A stretch of 42,094 bases of DNA. It comes from a virus. The translations under genes were made by a program, and so were the position numbers. Shown in pieces: positions 4,117 to 42,094 of this stretch. The stretch lies in the IMG/VR virus record IMGVR_UViG_3300030410_000069, positions 1-42,094 of that record; one strand, given 5' to 3'. Each line of letters starts with the position of its first letter. The first letter of the stretch is position 1. The notes beneath the pieces were generated by a model. It did no database searches and was not told the DNA's origin. It saw only the letters and a program-made list of their open reading frames with translations.

Positions 4117-4308
4117 TCAGCGCAAGCCCCTGGGTACCGGGGTCACCATTACCCCGTCTCCACGGCTGCGTACGGTCACCGGGCACGAGTCGGCTAGGTC
4201 CGCAAGGACCGTGTTGGCCGTACTGACGGGACCTTCGCCAGGGTCAATGGCCGGGTATCGGCTCCTACACCATGCCGAGTACTGCTCAAAGCTAAGGTCA
4301 CTTTGCAC
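4117..4308 (-). CDS. Small hypothetical protein, 63 aa
   Basis: The likely start is the GTG at 4308, just inside the end of the upstream gene (11-base overlap). A longer frame from 4368 overlaps that gene much more. The N-terminal half is acidic and aromatic (SDLSFEQYSAWCRSRYP), the C-terminal half beta-like and basic. No family recognised. Its stop lies at one arm of a small inverted repeat at 4100-4117. Confidence 0.5.
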   Translation of the reverse strand: MQSDLSFEQYSAWCRSRYPAIDPGEGPVSTANTVLADLADSCPVTVRSRGDGVMVTPVPRGLR

Positions 4309-4720
4309 CGGTGGATTCCTTCTTCTGCTTGTCGCGAACGGCCTGAACCAGAACCTGGGTGACTGCATAGAGGTCCCTTTCGTGAACCATCAAGCCCACG
4401 TAGCCGTAGGCGGGTTTGGAGCCCTGCTTAGCCAGGGTCTCTAGGTAGTAGTGCCCTCCCATGAGAGAGCAGCGATACTGGTTGCCATCGGCGTCGGGGA
4501 TACCAAAGGCCGCCGTGGTCCACTCCTGGCCCCTGAAGGCCTTTTCGCGAAGGTTGTCCACGTCCTGCTCAAGGGGCACCCTCTCCTTGGTCTCTTCTGC
4601 TTCGGGCACAACGGGAAGCTCCTGAACCGGCACAGGAGCCCCGAACAGTCCTTTAAGGTTAACGGGAGAAAACATGCTGATAGTACGGTCAGCTGCCGAC
4701 GGCTTCTTCACTTGTCCCAA
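4298..4720 (-). CDS. Hypothetical protein, 140 aa
   Basis: ATG at 4720, overlapping the end of the upstream nuclease gene by 13 bases. Residues 1-60 are polar with a Pro/Glu/Val-rich linker; residues 60-140 form a compact alpha/beta-looking region with MGGHYYLETLAKQ and a Lys-rich end. No membrane segment and no recognisable motif. Conserved operon position between two leftward genes supports it being real. Confidence 0.65.
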   Translation of the reverse strand: MGQVKKPSAADRTISMFSPVNLKGLFGAPVPVQELPVVPEAEETKERVPLEQDVDNLREKAFRGQEWTTAAFGIPDADGNQYRCSLMGGHYYLETLAKQGSKPAYGYVGLMVHERDLYAVTQVLVQAVRDKQKKESTGAK

Positions 4721-10136: not shown

Positions 10137-11168
10137 GTGGGAGCCAGCGCGAGCAAGTCGGCCCTCATCCTTAGCCCCTGTCTGAGGTGGGCCGCGATCG
10201 GCATGAAGGAATACGAGGACGCGTTCGCCGATACCACCAAGCGTGACAACGGGACCAGCTTCCACGCTGGCATGGATGCCTACTACCGAGACAGGGACTT
10301 GCGTGCCAAGAGCCCCTACATCCAGGACCTTGAGCTGGTTGGCTGGGGCCGCCAGATTGACCTCTGGAAGCCCCGTGAGCCCCAGGTGGCCAACTGGGTG
10401 CACGATGCCATCGCGTGGTCTGAGGAGCACCTGGAGCCACGGCTAAGCCTCATTGAAAGTGAGGTCTATGTCGCCTTCAACTTCGCCAACGGACTGCATC
10501 ATGTTGACGCCGAGGTGCGGGACCGCAAGTACCCGAAGATGCCCGGTTACCTACCTGGCACCTGTGACGTTGTGGGCGTACTTCTGTCGGGGCGACTACT
10601 GGTGGCCGACTGGAAGACCGGAGGCGGTACAGGTGCCGACAAGCAGCTGCTCACTCTGGCTCTTGGCCTTCGCGAAGAGTACAGGGCACCAGACGGGTCA
10701 CTTCGGCCTGTCACCCTGGCGGTGCTTTACGCCGGCAGTGAGGGTGTGCGACCTCACGAGTGGGAGGTGACCAATGAGGAGCTTGAGCAGCACCGTATCG
10801 CCATGCACCTGCAACTCGTGGACGTGGGCGTCAGGACTGAACCGGTGCCTGGCACGCACTGCCACAACCTTTACTGCAACCATCTGGCTTACTGCCCTGG
10901 CATCTCAGCAATCGTGGACGACGCGGCTGAATCTCCTGAAGGCCTTCTACCGGCGAAGCAGCTGGCGCGTAAGTTCACCATGGGTGGAGAGTTTACATCT
11001 GCCCAGCACGCGGGGTACGTAATGAGCAGGGTCACGGCAGCCAAGCGCCAGCTTGACTATCATTCCGCCAGGGTCAAAAGGCATCTGGCAAACGGTGGCA
11101 AGGTGCTTGCCGACGACTTAGAATTCAGCAATGGGCCAAATGGACACCGCTGGAAGCCAAAGAAGTGA
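10137..11168 (+). CDS. RecB/Cas4-like PD-(D/E)XK exonuclease, 343 aa
   Basis: GTG start directly after the preceding stop. The N terminus resembles the PDDEXK_1 family (SALILSPCLRWAAIGMKEYE). The nuclease core is at about residues 142-164: GTCDVVGVL, then GRLLVADWKTG, giving the Asp and D-x-K of the active site. At about 242-257 a Cys/His cluster HCHNLYCNHLAYCPG resembles the C-terminal cysteine motif that binds an iron-sulfur cluster in Cas4, AddB and RecB-like phage exonucleases. It is probably the end-resecting partner of ERF. It overlaps the downstream HNH gene by 38 bases. Confidence 0.82.
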   Translation: MGASASKSALILSPCLRWAAIGMKEYEDAFADTTKRDNGTSFHAGMDAYYRDRDLRAKSPYIQDLELVGWGRQIDLWKPREPQVANWVHDAIAWSEEHLEPRLSLIESEVYVAFNFANGLHHVDAEVRDRKYPKMPGYLPGTCDVVGVLLSGRLLVADWKTGGGTGADKQLLTLALGLREEYRAPDGSLRPVTLAVLYAGSEGVRPHEWEVTNEELEQHRIAMHLQLVDVGVRTEPVPGTHCHNLYCNHLAYCPGISAIVDDAAESPEGLLPAKQLARKFTMGGEFTSAQHAGYVMSRVTAAKRQLDYHSARVKRHLANGGKVLADDLEFSNGPNGHRWKPKK

Positions 11169-11583
11169 CTGCGTTGAGTGGGGCGGTCGCATCACTAGGA
11201 GCGGATACGGCCGACTTGACGTGAACAGGGAAGGTGGGTGGATACAGATTTACGCCCACCGTCTCATGTACGAGTTTCTACACGGGCCAATCCCTCCGGG
11301 GATGCACGTGATGCACAAGTGCGACAACCCGCCGTGCTGCAAACCAAGCCATTTGCTCCTTGGTACCAACGCTGACAACGTTGCTGACAAGGTGGCAAAG
11401 GGTCGTCAGACCAGCGGAGAGTCCCACCACACAGCTAAGATGACAGCTTCGGACGTTGGTGGAATCAGGCACCTGCTTTCTACCGGGCTGAGCACGGTGG
11501 AGATTGGTCGGGCGCTTGGTATCCCTCGTCAAACAATCAACGACATAAAGGCGGGTAGAACGTGGCGGACAAAAAAGACGTAG
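11131..11583 (+). CDS. HNH endonuclease with C-terminal helix-turn-helix, 150 aa
   Basis: Residues 41-81 contain YAHRLMYEFLHG and MHVMHKCDNPPCCKPSHLLL, the zinc-bound HNH pattern of homing-type endonucleases with catalytic His62 and metal His74. Residues 104-141 (MTASDVGGIRHLLSTGLSTV then EIGRALGIPRQTINDIKAG) form a helix-turn-helix typical of the same proteins. It is probably a free-standing homing endonuclease or a nicking enzyme in DNA processing. A related protein on the other strand at 17059-17607 lacks the equivalent catalytic His. Overlaps genes on both sides. Confidence 0.88.
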   Translation: MGQMDTAGSQRSDCVEWGGRITRSGYGRLDVNREGGWIQIYAHRLMYEFLHGPIPPGMHVMHKCDNPPCCKPSHLLLGTNADNVADKVAKGRQTSGESHHTAKMTASDVGGIRHLLSTGLSTVEIGRALGIPRQTINDIKAGRTWRTKKT

Positions 11584-11936
11584 CTCCGGGTGTTGTCTTT
11601 GAAAAAGCCGCTCGGCTTCGCGTGGAGTTTTGGGCATCCACCATTGACGCTTTTTTCCAGGACTTCCTGGAGAAGGCCGGAGACAACGACAAGCTGGGCA
11701 CCATCGTTGCGGCGGCCCGTCTGGCGCAGCTGGGTGAGTGCATCTCCAGGGAGTACGAGGCCAACTGTGGCGGCTTGTGCGAGAGCAAGACCGAGATCAA
11801 GGCAGCACAACAGGCGGCCGTGCTGGTGAATGAGATGTGCGAAAAGAACGCAGAGAGGTGTCAGTCCCTCATCCCCGCCCAGGAGGCGGAAGGTGCTCTG
11901 TTGCTGACTGGTACAGGGGACCGCTCCCTGAACTAG
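11562..11936 (+). CDS. Helical hypothetical protein, 124 aa
   Basis: GTG at 11562 inside the end of the HNH gene. Almost wholly helical, with four cysteines (LGECISREYEANCGGLCESK, MCEKNAERC). No family motif. It is the last gene of the rightward early operon: 98 bases downstream lies a strong rho-independent terminator. Confidence 0.65.
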   Translation: MADKKDVAPGVVFEKAARLRVEFWASTIDAFFQDFLEKAGDNDKLGTIVAAARLAQLGECISREYEANCGGLCESKTEIKAAQQAAVLVNEMCEKNAERCQSLIPAQEAEGALLLTGTGDRSLN

Positions 11937-12034
11937 GCCTTCCGCTGGGAGGCACTAAATCTGCGGCTTCCTTTAAGGAACGCCTTACGCTTTGGGCCCG
12001 TTTCGGCGGACACTTTCTCCTGCAAAAACCTGAG

Positions 12035-12069
12035 GCCCGGAAGATGGATTTTCCATTTCCCGGGCTTTT
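12035..12069 (+). terminator. Rho-independent terminator of the early operon
   Basis: The arm GCCCGGAAGATGGA pairs with TCCATTTCCCGGGC around a TTT loop: 14 positions with one A-C mismatch and one G-T pair. TTTT follows directly, then more T-rich DNA (GTTTTATTTT). A run of five A lies a few bases upstream, so weak activity in the other direction is conceivable. Confidence 0.85.
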
Positions 12070-12315
12070 GGCCGTTTTATTTTCCCTCTGAAATTTCGGC
12101 CCCGATTTGCCTTTAGAGCGCTTGGCTACCAAGATTCTTTACTGGTCGCCGGAGCACACCGGCGCGCACCACCGCACCGCACTCCACTCCACCCTGATGC
12201 GCACCACTGACGTGTGCGCACTGCAAGAACCGTTCCGTCGGTTGGCACGCTTCGTGACGGTACGAACATTGCTACGCGATACCCCACCGGCCCTGGGTAG
12301 CCTTTCCCGGGCAGG

Positions 12316-12418
12316 GTGTCCAGCTGGACACAAGCAGTGTCAAACTGGACACAAGCCAAGTGCCCGATGTTGCTACGGTAATCCAGATTCCAGTAAAACC
12401 GCGTGTCATCCGGGACAC
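12316..12418. promoter_or_regulatory. Triple operator-like array GTGTC-N6-GACAC
   Basis: Three 16-base sites share the half-sites GTGTC and GACAC. Site 1 at 12316-12331 is the perfect palindrome GTGTCCAGCTGGACAC. Site 2 at 12337-12352 is GTGTCAAACTGGACAC. Site 3 at 12403-12418 is GTGTCATCCGGGACAC. Sites 1 and 2 start 21 bases apart, about two helical turns, and are followed by the same bases CAAGC-shifted flank (AAGC). This is the arrangement of cooperative repressor or activator binding. No obvious DNA-binding partner gene lies next to it. Confidence 0.65.
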
Positions 12419-12541
12419 CGCTCCCCTCGCCCGCGCCCACTGATTCCGCACACTTGCACGGTTCTGAGCGTTGGCAGCAGTGTTGCATTACCTCTTATCA
12501 CGAGTGACGGAGAGTCCCTCGCAACACCGGAGCCAGCCCAC

Positions 12542-12784
12542 ATGATTCTCACCGTCTGCGTCTTCTCGTTTCTCTCCCTTACGGGCCCTGCGGCCGACAG
12601 TGAGACCTGTTACCGCGCTACGTCCAAAGACCTATCAGACATCAGGGTCGCCTGCTCAGCACTGGACCGCGACCCGCTCAGCACGTGTGAAGTGCAGCAG
12701 GTAGGAGCGACCAAATTCTTCGTACGCATCAGGCATATTGAGACCCATTCGGACACGGTCACTCGCGCCAAGGAAGAGGTCTGA
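12542..12784 (+). CDS. Secreted three-cysteine protein, 80 aa
   Basis: ATG at 12542 gives a signal peptide (ILTVCVFSFLSLTGPAADS, cleavage likely near residues 18-20). The mature part has Cys at 23, 38 and 49, with the block ACSALDRDPLSTCE. The same block with identical cysteine spacing (15 and 11 residues) is present in the protein encoded at 16665-16862 on the other strand, so the two form a small family. It is the first gene after the operator array. Function unknown; export to the periplasm or cell surface is inferred. Confidence 0.7.
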   Translation: MILTVCVFSFLSLTGPAADSETCYRATSKDLSDIRVACSALDRDPLSTCEVQQVGATKFFVRIRHIETHSDTVTRAKEEV

Positions 12785-12786
12785 GC

Positions 12787-12990
12787 ATGATTCACCGCTC
12801 CAAAACTAGCGTCGTTACCTACCAGTTTGCCTACGTCCCCGGTGAGTGTGACATGTGCGACAAGCATTCGGAGAATCCCTACCCTGGAACGCCCGCACTT
12901 GGCGCCGTGAGCCACGGCGCACACTTCGGAATATGCGAGTCTTGTGCGGTGGAAGACATGATTGCAGCAGCAGAAAGCGGAGCGGTCTGA
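12787..12990 (+). CDS. Zinc-ribbon-like small protein, 67 aa
   Basis: ATG at 12787, two bases after the preceding stop. CDMC at about residues 21-24 and CESC at about 51-54 form two C-x-x-C knuckles, the usual ligand set of a zinc ribbon. Probably binds nucleic acid or protein. No family name assigned. Confidence 0.65.
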   Translation: MIHRSKTSVVTYQFAYVPGECDMCDKHSENPYPGTPALGAVSHGAHFGICESCAVEDMIAAAESGAV

Positions 12991-12992
12991 AC

Positions 12993-13106
12993 ATGTACAC
13001 CTACGGCCGCTCTCCTCTCATCGTTCTGTCCCGCAACTGGGTGCAGCACTACTGCCTGCACATGATTGCCCGCGAGCCTTACGGCTATATCCAGGACCGC
13101 AAGTGA
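12993..13106 (+). CDS. Very small hypothetical protein, 37 aa
   Basis: ATG at 12993, two bases after the preceding stop and ending on a GTGA overlap with the next gene. Sequence is aromatic-rich (MYTYGRSPLIVLSRNWVQHY). No membrane segment clear enough to call. Support is its fit into the gene train, without which a real gap of about 110 bases would remain. Confidence 0.45.
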   Translation: MYTYGRSPLIVLSRNWVQHYCLHMIAREPYGYIQDRK

Positions 13107-13423
13107 CCGGCATCCACGTACGGTGCATCCTTGACCTGGCTTGGGCTGACGGCGAAACGATGTACGACGATAGGTACGAGGTGAGTGGCCTAGCCCACCG
13201 TGAGCCGTGTGGTTACGGTTGGGCAGATAGCTTTTGCTTCTCAATAACCGACGTTCTTATCTCGGCGCCCGACGGGGACGTCGCCACCTCCCGAGCGGTG
13301 CCCGAATGTCTACCGTCCAGCTGGTACGACGAGGCAGAGAGTGCACTGGCGGAGCAGGCTCGCGAGGACTACGACAACCGCGAGGACGACAGACCGGACC
13401 CCTACACACTTGAGGATTACTGA
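13103..13423 (+). CDS. Acidic hypothetical protein, 106 aa
   Basis: GTG at 13103 overlapping the upstream stop. The N-terminal half is strand-rich and aromatic (HVRCILDLAWADGETMYDD); the C-terminal 35 residues are very acidic (AREDYDNREDDRPDPYTLED). Strongly acidic tails are common in phage proteins that mimic DNA or bind basic host proteins, but nothing specific is seen here. Confidence 0.6.
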   Translation: MTGIHVRCILDLAWADGETMYDDRYEVSGLAHREPCGYGWADSFCFSITDVLISAPDGDVATSRAVPECLPSSWYDEAESALAEQAREDYDNREDDRPDPYTLEDY

Positions 13424-13424
13424 C

Positions 13425-13814
13425 ATGTACGAGAACCTGAACGTCTGCTTTCGCCTTCGCGTCCTTCTCGGCGACGGAAAGACTCTCGCGGTTACGGCTT
13501 GGGATGACGCCCATAGCAACTCTCCCTACCACCGCCGCATAGACGTTCGGGCTACGGTACTTTGGACCGAGGACGGAAAGCGTCGCAGCGCCACGCCGTT
13601 CAAGCGAGGAGACACTTACTGCGGTCTGCCCTCCGGGCACTGCACGGACAGCCAAGAGGCCAAGGCGCTCGTCCTGGGCTTGCTGGCGATGCGTCCCGGG
13701 GACACTGACCCGGACTACTTCTCCGACTACACTCCCGAGCAGCTGGCCTTCGCAAACGATTACTCTGACGAAATCACATGCGAGCAGATGCGCCGCTACG
13801 GGGAAGACTCATGA
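13425..13814 (+). CDS. Hypothetical protein, 129 aa
   Basis: ATG at 13425, one base after the preceding stop. Alternating beta-like stretches (VCFRLRVLLGDGKTLAVTAW, RIDVRATVLW) with an acidic C-terminal half. It shares length class and acidic end with the preceding gene but no clear homology. Ends on an ATGA overlap. Confidence 0.6.
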   Translation: MYENLNVCFRLRVLLGDGKTLAVTAWDDAHSNSPYHRRIDVRATVLWTEDGKRRSATPFKRGDTYCGLPSGHCTDSQEAKALVLGLLAMRPGDTDPDYFSDYTPEQLAFANDYSDEITCEQMRRYGEDS

Positions 13815-14002
13815 CGCTACCCAAGTACACTAGCGTGGGATGTTACCCTCTGTTCTACGTACACAAGGGCCATGAGGCCTATTGTCAAAAGTGTGCAGAA
13901 GAGAACGAGCTAAGCGAGTTAGACGCTCACGTTCATTGGGAGGGCGAGCTTACGTGCGACAACTGTAGCGAAGAGATTGAAGCCGCATACCCTGACACGT
14001 GA
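13811..14002 (+). CDS. Zinc-ribbon-like small protein, 63 aa
   Basis: ATG at 13811 on an ATGA overlap. CQKC at about residues 25-28 and CDNC at about 48-51 make a two-knuckle zinc ribbon, with His residues between. Partner unknown. Its stop is followed by a structured leader before the DUF932 gene. Confidence 0.65.
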   Translation: MTLPKYTSVGCYPLFYVHKGHEAYCQKCAEENELSELDAHVHWEGELTCDNCSEEIEAAYPDT

Positions 14003-15640: not shown

Positions 15641-15759
15641 TCCTGGGGCATCGTGGCGAAGTCTCAATTCCTGTACCAGTGACGCGGCGCGGTATACGCT
15701 GGCACTGTAAGGAAAGATTGGTGCCACCGTGTTCTGGCATGCCCGTTGCCTAGGACGTT

Positions 15760-15790
15760 GGCACGTTGTTTGGTGGGCAACAACCGTGCC
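15760..15790. other. Stem-loop in non-coding block
   Basis: GGCACGTTGTT pairs with AACAACCGTGCC around loop TGGTGGGC, with one bulged C. Its right arm contains the first copy of the AACCGTGCCA repeat. Confidence 0.55.
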
Positions 15791-15842
15791 ACTCAAAAAA
15801 CCATACCCCTGCAAGAACCGTGCCACTGCAAGAACCATGCCA
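15782..15842. repeat. Three copies of AACCRTGCCA
   Basis: AACCGTGCCACT occurs at 15782-15793 and 15816-15827; AACCATGCCA at 15833-15842. The last two copies share the longer flank CTGCAAG upstream and are 17 bases apart. Short iterated motifs of this type can be protein-binding iterons. Confidence 0.55.
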
Positions 15843-15858
15843 GCTTTTCCTTGGCACG

Positions 15859-15893
15859 AAAAACGCCGAGCCTAGTTTCCTGGGCTCGGCGTT
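15859..15893 (-). terminator. Terminator of the leftward operon (possibly bidirectional)
   Basis: AACGCCGAGCC pairs perfectly with GGCTCGGCGTT around a ten-base loop. Read leftwards the stem is followed by TTTTT (complement of 15859-15863), a good rho-independent terminator for the operon 17607-16061. On the plus strand only TTATCTG follows, so rightward activity is weaker. Confidence 0.75.
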
Positions 15894-15903
15894 ATCTGTG
15901 CCA

Positions 15904-16005
15904 GGGGGCTGCTGCCCCCACTGTGTGGGCTGGGGCCTAGGGGCTACTGCCCCCATGCCAACGTGACTGGGGGCTATGGCCCGGGGGCGCTTACCCCCAT
16001 TGGGG
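15904..16005. repeat. Chain of short G-run/C-run hairpins
   Basis: Successive small palindromes: GGGGGC-TGCT-GCCCCC (15904-15919), GGGGC-TACT-GCCCC (15940-15953), GGGC-TATG-GCCC (15971-15982), GGGGG-CGCTTA-CCCCC (15983-15998), then CCCC-ATT-GGGG. The first two share the core GGGGCTNCTGCCCC. They are spaced by roughly 30-40 bases and follow the terminator hairpin. Confidence 0.6.
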
Positions 16006-16060
16006 TGGCATGATTTTTGCCCCGAAGGGACCCATTACACCCGCGTAATGCCAGGAAGTT

Positions 16061-16374: not shown

Positions 16375-16665
16375 TTACCAGCCCGGCGAGCCGGTGCAGC
16401 CCTTGCACCTACACGGTGCTTGCGTCCGCGCGGGTGCGTCGTTCCTAGCACCCCCTTCTTCCAAGGCCCTCTCGCTCAGGTTCCTAGCGTACGCCTCCTC
16501 CAGCTGGTAGCGCTCCCACATGGGAAGGTAGCTCCTGGAAGCTACCTCAAAGACTTGAGTTTCACGCTTGTGCAGTAGCCAGAAGAACAGCCAGTCATCC
16601 GAAATGAAGTTCTTCAACTTGCTGGAGCGCCGCATTTGCAGGCTCAGCATGTCCAGGCGGGTCAT
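16375..16665 (-). CDS. Hypothetical protein, 96 aa
   Basis: ATG at 16665 on an ATGA overlap with the upstream secreted protein. Residues 1-70 are helical, with aromatic clusters (DDWLFFWLLHKRE, YLPMWERYQLEEAYARN); the end holds CRCKGC. No family recognised. The C-terminal Cys cluster could bind metal. Confidence 0.6.
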   Translation of the reverse strand: MTRLDMLSLQMRRSSKLKNFISDDWLFFWLLHKRETQVFEVASRSYLPMWERYQLEEAYARNLSERALEEGGARNDAPARTQAPCRCKGCTGSPGW

Positions 16666-16862
16666 CAGAGGCTCCGGTGAACGAACAGGTACATAGACCC
16701 GTCCGAGGTTCGTAACGCCTCACAGGTGGCAAGGGGGTCCTTCTGGGCGGCACTACAGGTAACCTGGGCCCGGTGGAGGAAGGCGGCGTCAGCCGCAACA
16801 CAGCGAGTCTCCCGAGGGAGAGGGCTGGAAAGGGAAAGGAGCATGATGCAAACAGTAAACAT
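16665..16862 (-). CDS. Secreted three-cysteine protein, 65 aa (paralog of 12542-12784)
   Basis: Starts on a TAATG overlap at 16862, giving a signal peptide (MFTVCIMLLSLSSPLP). Mature part has Cys at 21, 36 and 47, and the block TCSAAQKDPLATCE, matching ACSALDRDPLSTCE in the protein at 12542-12784 with the same cysteine spacing. It is therefore a member of the same secreted family, here in the leftward operon. Function unknown. A third residue pair of interest is the C-terminal FVHR, matching FVRI in the paralog. Confidence 0.7.
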   Translation of the reverse strand: MFTVCIMLLSLSSPLPRETRCVAADAAFLHRAQVTCSAAQKDPLATCEALRTSDGSMYLFVHRSL

Positions 16863-17062
16863 TACGAATGGTTACACTCCGAATGGTCGCCAAGATTGTG
16901 CCGACCGTATTGTTCAGCTTCTGCCACGTGTCGGTCAAAGATTACCCTGTGGGTAAGTAGCCCGTGCCAGCCCAATGTGCGCTTGGAGCGGCGCCTAATC
17001 ATTTTGTATAGGTCCGCGACCAGCCTCTTCATGACTCGTTCCTTGAGTCTCCGGTAGCTCAC
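16862..17062 (-). CDS. Small basic protein, 66 aa
   Basis: GTG at 17062 overlaps the stop of the HNH-like gene (GTGA) and its stop overlaps the next ATG (TAATG), so it is embedded in a translationally coupled chain. The N-terminal half is very basic (SYRRLKERVMKRLVADLYKM then IRRRSKR); the C-terminal half is His-rich. Likely nucleic-acid binding, by composition only. Confidence 0.6.
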   Translation of the reverse strand: MSYRRLKERVMKRLVADLYKMIRRRSKRTLGWHGLLTHRVIFDRHVAEAEQYGRHNLGDHSECNHS

Positions 17063-17607
17063 GCGGCCACCTTAGCGTCACGCTGACCGGGGAGCCAGAC
17101 GTGCTTGATGAGTACGGACATTCGCCTGATGCTGTCTAGGCCCCAGCCTGAAACATAAGCGATATCATGCACATTGGCTCCATGTCGGAGCATGGAGCCA
17201 ACCACATCGGCGGGCTCCTTGTCGGCCGGGCCGTTTACCTTAGCGAATCCCGGGTCGGGCGGCGCCGCGACTCCGCCAATCTGAATCTTGTTGTGCAAGT
17301 TGGCGAAACTGCGAACGAATCTGACGTTGGCCGCAACCATGGTCATGTGCCCCGGGTTGCAGCAGAGCTTGTTCCGGCACTTGGGCGAAAGGGCCACTGC
17401 TTTCAACAGGTTGCACCCAAACTGGGCCTCGTACATGGCGATTCTTGGCGTCAGGTAGAGCCAGGTCTCGCCACACATGGCCCTGTAGGACGGCTTACCG
17501 TACTGGTCCATGTGCCCCGTCCAGCTCCAGCAAGCTGTTGGATTACGAACACTTACGTACTGGGCAACCTTGGCGCTGTACTCATTGGGTACCCCAAAGA
17601 CCATCAT
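17059..17607 (-). CDS. HNH-fold protein lacking catalytic His, with HTH-like tail, 182 aa
   Basis: Start taken at ATG 17607 (MMVFGVPNEY), with AAGGAT about 12 bases upstream; the frame is open further to 17676. Residues 26-92 follow the zinc-HNH plan of the protein at 11131-11583: CWSWTGHMDQYGKPSY, then TPRIAMYEAQFG and LSPKCRNKLCCNPGHM. Where the active relative has MHKC (catalytic His) this protein has SPKC, and AHRLMYE has become TPRIAMYE. The zinc cysteines and last His remain. Residues 133-171 (ADVVGSMLRHGANVHDIAYV then a second helix) match the relative's HTH. It is probably a DNA-binding protein that can no longer cut, and it heads the leftward operon. A regulator role is an inference. 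Confidence 0.65.
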   Translation of the reverse strand: MMVFGVPNEYSAKVAQYVSVRNPTACWSWTGHMDQYGKPSYRAMCGETWLYLTPRIAMYEAQFGCNLLKAVALSPKCRNKLCCNPGHMTMVAANVRFVRSFANLHNKIQIGGVAAPPDPGFAKVNGPADKEPADVVGSMLRHGANVHDIAYVSGWGLDSIRRMSVLIKHVWLPGQRDAKVAA

Positions 17608-22510: not shown

Positions 22511-22587
22511 GCCGCAGTAGCCCAATTGGAAGAGGCAGTGGTCTTAGAAGCCACGTGTTGTAGGTTCAACTCCTACCTGCGGTACCA
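22511..22587 (+). tRNA. tRNA with anticodon TAG (Leu codon CTA), short variable loop
   Basis: Full cloverleaf: acceptor GCCGCAG/CTGCGGT, D arm GCC/GGC, anticodon stem GTGGT/GCCAC with loop CTTAGAA (anticodon TAG at 22545-22547), five-base variable loop GTGTT, T arm GTAGG-TTCAACT-CCTAC, discriminator A, and an encoded CCA at 22585-22587. The anticodon reads CUA leucine codons and A73 is what LeuRS needs, but bacterial leucine tRNAs carry a long variable arm, which is absent here. Confidence 0.85.
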
Positions 22588-22629
22588 GCCCTACATAATC
22601 CCGGGGCGATGTAAGAATACGGGACTCTG

Positions 22630-22711
22630 GTCGTTCACACCCATGGCGGGTAACGTGGCTGTAAACCACGGGGGCCTTATGGCTTGCTAGGTTCAATTCC
22701 TAGGGACGGCA
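22630..22711 (+). tRNA. tRNA-Tyr (anticodon GTA)
   Basis: Acceptor GTCGTTC/GGACGGC (with G-T pairs), anticodon stem CGTGG/CCACG with loop CTGTAAA, class II variable arm with GCC-TTAT-GGC stem, T arm CTAGG-TTCAATT-CCTAG, discriminator A, no encoded CCA. The long variable arm and GTA anticodon both fit bacterial tyrosine tRNA. The D arm (ACCC-ATGGC-GGGT) has an unusually small loop. Confidence 0.8.
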
Positions 22712-22716
22712 CTATG

Positions 22717-22788
22717 CCCCTGGTCGTCTAGCGGTCAGGACACAGTGCGCGACGCGCTGGAACGCTGGTTCAACTCCAGCTCGGGGGC
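22717..22788 (+). tRNA. tRNA-like element with abnormal anticodon arm
   Basis: Acceptor CCCCTGG/TCGGGGG, then TC, D arm GTCT-AGCGGTCA-GGAC, four-base variable loop GAAC and T arm GCTGG-TTCAACT-CCAGC are a good Glu/Asp-type body. But the anticodon arm CAGTG-CGCGACG-CGCTG has G at position 33 instead of the universal U, and the loop can close to a seven-pair stem with a CGA triloop. It is therefore a decayed tRNA or a tRNA-like structure. Formal anticodon would be CGA (Ser). Confidence 0.6.
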
Positions 22789-22792
22789 CCGG

Positions 22793-40479: not shown

Positions 40480-42094
40480 GTAACAAATACGCTATCGCGC
40501 CGAACGGTCAGGCGGTCCTGCTTACGGATGAGCAGGCCGCCGCGACGTCTGGAGAAGCGGGCTTCACCCCAATCACCGAGGGCGACTACAAAGGCCAGAG
40601 ACAGGCCCAGGTCGCCTCTGACTACGTTGACCAGAACTGGGGCACGAGCGGCAAGGCAGCGGCTGGGCTCGCGAGCGGTCTCACGCTTGGCCTAGCACCC
40701 TCCTTGGCTTCCCGGATGGGGCTCGTGGACAAGGACCACCTTGAGGCGGCGGAGCAGTCCGGCGCTTACATGGCTGGCGACGTCGCGGGCATGGTGGCCC
40801 CGTCCCTGCTTACCGGGGGCGGCTCACTGGCGGCCCGTGGGGCGGCCCAGGGTGGACTAAGGGGGGCTTCTAAGCTGGCCCTGGCCCTGACACCGGCTGG
40901 CCTCATGGGCGAGGCTGGTGGGCTTGCAGAGCGCTTCACGGCGAAGATGCTGGGCGAGGCCGGCATCATGGGGAAGCTCGCCAATCCGACCATCAGCATG
41001 GCGGCCCGGGGAGCTACCGAGGGCGCCATCAACAACATGGCCCACACGGTCTCTGACCAGGTCATCCAGAACAAGCCCCTGGCCGCTGAGGCTATCCTTG
41101 CGTCTGGCATGGATGGGGCCCTGTTTGGTGGGCTTACGGGCGGTGTTCTGGGCGGAGCTTCGGCTGCTGCTGGGGCCGGAATTGACCTCGTGGGTGGCCG
41201 CGTGGCCAGTGCCGGCGCTGGGCGCGCGGGTGCTGGAGCCAAAGTCATGAAGTACCTGGGCTCCTCCAGGGAGGACGTGGCCGCTATCGCGGGTCGTGAA
41301 TCGGGAATTCTGAACAAGGCCGCGGGGGCTGAGCGGAGCGGCGTTGACCAGATGGTCCACGGGCTCCAGGACATCCTCCAGAAGGGTGACGGCAGCGTAT
41401 CGGCTGGCGTCCAGGACGTCCGTAGGGCCAGTAAGGTGGCCTATGAGGGGTACTCTGCGGGGCTCAAGGATGACGTATCCACGATGACCAGGGACGCGGC
41501 TGCGTCTACGCCCACGGTCGCCAGGCTCAATGCCCGCATGAACACGGAGTTGGGGGCAAAGTTCAATGGCACGTCGGAAGCCATGGAGGTGACCGCGCTG
41601 AACCGACAGATTCAGAAGCAGTTCCGTTCCGTCAAAACCTGGGAGGGTTGGGCCAAGTCGCGCGAGTCCCTGGCGACCAAGCTAGAGGGCATGGGCGAAG
41701 GCGTCCGCAAGGACGTGCTCAAGACGACGCTCAACATCATTGATGACGAGATGGTGGGGGACGCGAGCGCCCTGATGGCTTCGCACCCCGAGCTGGCCAA
41801 GAGCTACGCGGCCAACGTGGTAGGCAAGGGCTTTGCCTCCGACTACATCAAGATGACGGCCGTAGGGGCAGCCAATCCGGCGACCTCAAGCTTCAACGTG
41901 GGGCAGGCGGTTGGCGTAGCCGGCTGGTCTGGCGTCATGGGCGTTCATCCCGTTATCCCGCTGGGAATGATGGCCGGTAAGCAGATTCTGGATAAGGTGA
42001 AGCAGGGACTAGCGGCGCCTATGGCGGAAGCCGCCTTCCGTTCGGCTCTGGGAGCCCAAGCGAACCACGCTACCGTCAACATGGGCCAGCGGAT
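40476..42094 (+). CDS. N-terminal part of the junction-spanning ejection protein (about 780 aa in all)
   Basis: ATG at 40476 on an ATGA overlap. The frame has no stop before the end of the window, and base 41997 is in phase with base 2, where it continues to 823. Residues about 60-260 are unusually rich in Gly and Ala, with hydrophobic patches (KAAAGLASGLTLGLAPSLAS, DVAGMVAPSLLTGGGSLAAR, GALFGGLTGGVLGGASAAAG) that look like glycine-zipper membrane segments. The rest is helical. The position after the 676-residue protein and this composition suggest a membrane-inserting ejection protein. I recognise no peptidase or lytic-transglycosylase motif. Confidence 0.85.
   Translation, partial: MSNKYAIAPNGQAVLLTDEQAAATSGEAGFTPITEGDYKGQRQAQVASDYVDQNWGTSGKAAAGLASGLTLGLAPSLASRMGLVDKDHLEAAEQSGAYMAGDVAGMVAPSLLTGGGSLAARGAAQGGLRGASKLALALTPAGLMGEAGGLAERFTAKMLGEAGIMGKLANPTISMAARGATEGAINNMAHTVSDQVIQNKPLAAEAILASGMDGALFGGLTGGVLGGASAAAGAGIDLVGGRVASAGAGRAGAGAKVMKYLGSSREDVAAIAGRESGILNKAAGAERSGVDQMVHGLQDILQKGDGSVSAGVQDVRRASKVAYEGYSAGLKDDVSTMTRDAAASTPTVARLNARMNTELGAKFNGTSEAMEVTALNRQIQKQFRSVKTWEGWAKSRESLATKLEGMGEGVRKDVLKTTLNIIDDEMVGDASALMASHPELAKSYAANVVGKGFASDYIKMTAVGAANPATSSFNVGQAVGVAGWSGVMGVHPVIPLGMMAGKQILDKVKQGLAAPMAEAAFRSALGAQANHATVNMGQR
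41997..42094. repeat. Terminal overlap, right copy
   Basis: Exact copy of 2-99. See the left copy. Removing it gives a circle of about 41,995 bp. Confidence 0.95.

Follow-up and report, generated by a model that had tools for sequence, protein, structure and literature searches.

The array considered here, three dyads of the form GTGTC-N6-GACAC, shares features with several described systems. Operators of the lambda OL/OR type, which serve CI/Cro-like XRE repressors, likewise consist of several dyads of 16–17 bp placed about two helical turns apart in a promoter region, and temperate-phage operators likewise vary in sequence among relatives while keeping their position. The iterons of the lambda origin, as recognised by O-type initiators, are also tandem imperfect dyads (21–25 bp), and the very motif found here occurs in the initiator genes of many other phages. 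With sigma-54 promoters and their upstream activating sequences (UAS), for which TGGCAYG-N4-TTGC is the textbook -24/-12 pattern, the locus has in common an element of -24/-12 type lying 54 bp downstream, from which the dyads stand at the usual distance, and an enrichment of such elements across the family. Stoperators, such as those of cluster A mycobacteriophages, are phage-specific repeated repressor sites dispersed over the genome.

In each comparison the locus also differs. Unlike the lambda OL/OR type, it lies far from any regulator gene, and no XRE repressor, divergent repressor/cro pair or integrase was recognised among the Pfam and PHROG matches. Unlike the iterons of the lambda origin, the array is non-coding, comprises three sites only, with spacings of 21 and then 66 bp, and is accompanied by no detected initiator gene; unlike typical sigma-54 promoters with UAS, most of the -24/-12-like elements are clustered away from genes. 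All three sites are confined to one spacer, in contrast to stoperators, for which a better candidate was found in L007, a 14.9 kb phage contig of 38% GC with 15 dispersed exact copies of the motif.

The window, i.e. the whole 42,094-bp stretch of phage DNA that was analysed, contains exactly three copies of GTGTC-N6-GACAC, all inside the single non-coding spacer listed in Table 1 with the other features and with the relatives G031 and G046; the three sites described in the earlier note, and the spacings between them, were all recovered in place. Taken with the flanking AAGC, dyad 2 repeats dyad 1 directly over 20 bp with 90% identity, and the gap between dyads 2 and 3 holds no degenerate site. 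No further copy, exact or with one mismatch, was found in the whole record and the motif is consequently not common in coding sequence, frequent occurrence there being one of the two circumstances that the earlier note had named as counting against the array, the other being absence from related phages at this position. Because the last 95 bases (42000–42094) repeat bases 5–99, the genome was judged circular and essentially complete, so that the absence of other copies applies to the phage as a whole. When 60 windows were simulated with a trinucleotide model of the same composition, in none of them did a given 5-bp-arm dyad (spacer 0–12) reach three copies within 150 bp, and in 10 of the 60 there were two. 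Perfect 5-N6-5 dyads in the spacer number six (at 12148, 12228 and 12251, plus the three GTGTC sites) against about 0.6 expected by simple arithmetic (605 positions × 4^-5).

Table 1. Positions of the array, of the surrounding features and of related elements (positions refer to the window unless a locus of a relative is named).
Feature	Position	Strand	Remarks
Dyad 1	12316..12331		GTGTCCAGCTGGACAC; perfect 16-bp palindrome
Dyad 2	12337..12352		GTGTCAAACTGGACAC; starts 21 bp (two helical turns) after dyad 1
Dyad 3	12403..12418		GTGTCATCCGGGACAC; starts 66 bp after the start of dyad 2
Spacer between replication and accessory operons	11937..12541		Non-coding; syntenic in G031 and G046
Element TTGGCACGCTTCGTGACGGTAC	12242..12263	+	Counterpart in G031 spacer is CTGGCACACTTCGTGACGGCAC; overlaps dyad TTCGT-N6-ACGAA at 12251
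Block conserved with G046	12442..12503	+	69% over 62 nt (blastn, E 0.03); presumably contains the promoter of the accessory operon
Sigma-54-like element TGGCAGCAGTGTTGC	12472..12486	+	Fits -24/-12 pattern TGGCA-N6-TTGC; G046 keeps GG-N10-GC (TTGGTACGTGCGGTGC)
First accessory gene	12542..12784	+	80-aa secreted Cys-containing protein
Second conserved non-coding region	15735..16020		TGGCA-N6-TTGC repeats at 15735, 15777, 15811, 15828, 16006
Family-wide TGGCA-N6-TTGC clusters	L247 8913-8947; L227 13787-14030; L248 4484-4532; L252 4466-4594		Both orientations; non-coding

The spacer comes after the gene at 11562–11936, with which the replication operon ends; the genome encodes DnaB_C, ERF, SSB, a PD-(D/E)XK exonuclease and a VRR nuclease. 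A hairpin at approximately 12034–12064 was read by eye after that operon; the terminator scan did not flag it and made only one call, a weak one at 12121. A consensus scan returned no sigma-70-like promoter, and Rfam gave no match. Downstream, GGAG stands 9 nt ahead of the ATG of the secreted-protein gene at 12542. This protein and the product of 16665–16862 (-) look like paralogues: each is small, secreted and Cys-containing, and DPLxTCE is present in both. G031 has a homologue at L227 14127–14333. A coding role for the array was rejected: the sole frame reading VQLDT..VKLDT..VIRDT (12258–12443) has no ATG, GTG or TTG start. The weak initiator-HMM match of frame 12258–12440 (E 0.016) is produced by the array's own translation, and hence is not independent of it.

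Relatives found via the portal and TerL alignments constitute a family of 38–44 kb phages across which the replication operon is syntenic. INPHARED yielded no DNA match for 11500–14000 or 20000–42094, and over these ranges the family is without a DNA-similar representative in that collection. Of the 16 relative records, several of them fragments, 14 lack the exact motif; a single copy is present in each of G034 and G046, in both cases in another non-coding region and not in the spacer. The closest relative having the spacer region is G046 (TerL 66%), in which the spacer follows the homologue of the gene at 11562 and was recognised by a common CACCGCACCGCACTCCACTCCAC repeat and by the block aligned to 12442–12503. 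Its spacer dyads, ATGACACCCATGTCAT and ATGACACTAACGTCAT, are both ATGAC-N6-GTCAT (L247:4776 and 4832) and have the same 5-N6-5 build; between the end of the second and the conserved block there are 23 nt, exactly the distance found for dyad 3 in this phage. The objection that related phages might lack the array at this position therefore holds for the GTGTC sequence but not for the feature, another dyad occupying the slot in the closest relative.

Comparable dyads mark the second non-coding region of several relatives. ATGAC-N6-GTCAT appears again in that of G046 (L247:8787, 8830 and 8853, in addition to degenerate copies), the G031 genome has just three copies of TGGTT-N1-AACCA, one in the spacer and two in the second region, and G032 and G037 have pairs of TGACA-N3-TGTCA dyads 31 bp apart in theirs. 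Two of these dyads in G032 (L228 3408–3451) exactly bracket the element TGGCACGGGTCTTGC, an arrangement with the look of operator, promoter and operator. Each of these lineages thus possesses a repeated dyad of its own in corresponding locations, which is why an operator system is preferred here over iterons or chance. In the present phage, the second region (15735–16020) contains no GTGTC dyads, whereas the lineage-specific dyads of G046 and G031 do recur in theirs.

The array is non-random, non-coding and confined to the spacer before the accessory operon, and what it has in common with the closest relative is position and not sequence. It is a real and probably regulatory element of a kind already known, and its three palindromes look like an ordinary but fast-changing candidate control switch. 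On balance it is probably a lineage-specific operator at which a dimeric regulator would control the promoter of the accessory genes. As with CI/Cro-type operators, tandem dyads lie in a non-coding spacer in which a promoter is presumed. A dimeric, sequence-specific DNA-binding protein would occupy all three dyads and control the accessory operon from 12542 onwards: the dimers on dyads 1 and 2 would lie on the same face of the helix, at a spacing suited to cooperative binding, while dyad 3 would be bound nearer the promoter, and the operon would thereby be switched. Binding would act on the promoter presumed in block 12442–12503. The sequence of the sites would change along with the binder from phage to phage, as with the operators of heteroimmune phages, and the binder could be either a phage protein with no recognisable HTH or a host factor. 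Counted against the operator reading are the facts that G046 is the single relative with the slot match and aligns weakly there (E 0.03), that neither an HTH_3 nor an O-like winged-helix protein and no sigma-70-like promoter were found, and that the phage's own dyads are missing from its second region.

The description of the locus as an operator array with no obvious partner has held up: the sites are non-random, and searches for HTH_3 and winged-helix partners came back empty. Pfam searches of the 65 ORFs returned no regulator, and no integrase or repressor was recognised among the Pfam and PHROG matches. The only HTH_3 signal in the genome was a sub-threshold match within the HNH protein at 11131–11583 (15.4 bits against a cut-off of 23), and hence the cognate XRE repressor that CI/Cro-type operators have in the same genome was not detected. 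A winged-helix initiator was sought by phmmer, a family HMM and HTH_36, which gave nothing except the array's own translation, and the array is neither in nor beside a gene of this type, as iterons would be. The partner may be a host protein. For the HNH-HTH protein at 17059–17607, proposed in the earlier note as a binder, no support was obtained: its resemblance is confined to HNH endonucleases (PHROG 1872, E 1.3e-14), and it has no Pfam HTH match and is without a homologue in ten relatives.

Several further candidates were tried and rejected. The HNH_3 protein at 11131–11583, which has a C-terminal HTH, has homologues in five relatives that lack the array and none in G046; because of the former it is taken to be mobile rather than a partner, apparently behaving like a mobile endonuclease. 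The DUF932/TIGR03299 gene follows TGTCA-type dyads only loosely, with G038, G039 and G045 as misfits. For the product of 4298–4720, a leftward gene kept in six relatives, the beta-beta-beta-alpha model is of low confidence (pLDDT 62) and supports no conclusion. Sites of the MrpC-like CRP type have a longer spacer and were discarded as a match, a search of papers giving nothing useful.

In IMG/VR, at least 120 stretches were found to have two GTGTC-N6-GACAC sites no more than 30 bp apart, against a chance expectation of about one estimated from base counts, although many contigs in the sample are near-duplicates and the array counts are consequently not independent; the excess was judged from spacing and gene context. 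Among the matches listed, spacings peak at 22–25 bp, and at most loci a single gene, which encodes a phage replication initiator, contains the sites immediately behind its winged helix; of 92 ORFs that span an array, again among the matches listed, 81 belong to one BLAST-connected set, and DnaB/DnaC-type genes are often nearby. The layout is, by analogy, that of lambda O and its iterons, and examples from many unrelated phages (L005–L123) include L005 2810–2897 and L022 5796–5900, with 22–25 bp spacing. A smaller group consists of non-coding tandem pairs adjoining HTH_3 repressor genes (L025, L060, L064, L099, L109), sometimes as a divergent pair, i.e. what from their context seem typical repressor operators. 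Tandem arrays of this dyad in phage DNA thus appear to be mostly replication iterons, a reading missing from the earlier note, and as a motif common to the initiators of many unrelated phages the dyad offers a ready search key for phage origins. One dyad evidently serves different proteins in different phages, as these gene contexts suggest, and for that reason the motif alone cannot decide function. It was not found printed in the open papers searched, in the notations tried.

These arrays supply the main rival to the operator reading, namely that the three dyads serve as iterons of a replication origin and are recognised by an initiator in the way that lambda O recognises its own. Most of the IMG/VR tandem arrays listed sit inside winged-helix initiator genes, the nine pairs at exactly 21 bp are mostly in or beside such genes too, and the array comes after the replication operon; nevertheless we regard the proposal as unlikely, since the phage encodes no such initiator by the searches described, the array lies outside any gene, and its longer gap is devoid of even a degenerate site. 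Moreover, the conserved region 15735–16020 looks the better origin candidate. In it, repeats with a 17-bp period (GCAAGAACCRTGCCACT) at 15777–15842 adjoin a hairpin with 27-bp arms (15849–15906), and the region may be an origin or a promoter cluster. TGGCAYG-N4-TTGC repeats in both orientations mark it in most relatives, and TGGCA-N6-TTGC occurs 8 times in the phage record where approximately 0.5 would be expected. Most relatives show an enrichment as well, in contrast to 40 other phage loci, in which 7 copies were seen and 8.0 expected. Either the family makes use of host sigma-54, as these repeats could indicate, or its origin iterons merely resemble the sigma-54 pattern. If the former applies, the array is placed like an enhancer, and it could be a UAS for a host sigma-54 activator (bEBP) acting on the promoter TGGCAGCAGTGTTGC at 12472. 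This copy, 54 bp past dyad 3, faces the accessory gene, and its GG-N10-GC is kept in G046; counted from the presumed start, the dyad centres would by arithmetic lie near -87, -153 and -174, distances usual for such sites. The UAS proposal was judged less probable again than iterons, most copies being clustered in both orientations within one gene-free region, in a manner more like iterons than promoters, while none precedes the accessory operon of G031 and no bEBP was found among the Pfam matches of the phage genome. Marginally more doubtful still is the broader proposition that host sigma-54 promoters, in the form of the TGGCAYG-N4-TTGC clusters, drive part of the transcription in this family, with the GTGTC dyads as a phage-borne enhancer for a host activator and different host activators matched by an exchange of dyads among relatives; if true, the accessory genes would be switched on by host physiology.

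Two other explanations were considered. A host regulator or resident prophage repressor might happen to recognise them, or they might be a decoy titrating a foreign initiator or repressor: the motif is common to the iterons and repressor operators of many unrelated phages, no partner was found in cis, and ectopic copies of the lambda origin do block lambda replication (PMC4488673). The co-positioned yet different dyads of G046 and G031 argue instead for a system evolved within the phage family and make this quite improbable. It is more improbable again, and by our estimate scarcely credible, that the array is a product of chance or a structural by-product (RNA hairpins, or repeats with no binder): a short hairpin is possible at each dyad, and a CACCGCACC-type simple repeat common to G046 lies in the neighbouring spacer, but the simulation, the positional conservation and the lack of an Rfam match all speak against it.

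Under the favoured operator reading, the locus would represent operator turnover in phages with no recognisable repressor, slot and dyad build remaining the same while the sequence differs, and would provide a small testable case. Although of an ordinary kind, the array is moderately interesting because the sites turn over while the positions stay, and its binder, once found, would show whether a novel kind of phage regulator is at work or the host is in control.

Elsewhere in the genome, three tRNA genes (Leu, Tyr and Ser-CGA) were located at 22511–22790, ahead of the terminase. The gene at 1206–1880 codes for a Matrixin-like metalloprotease that is kept in 9 of 10 relatives, and its weak similarity to a protease family of Myxococcus (E 8.9e-5), well below that family's cut-off, is a possible hint as to the host.
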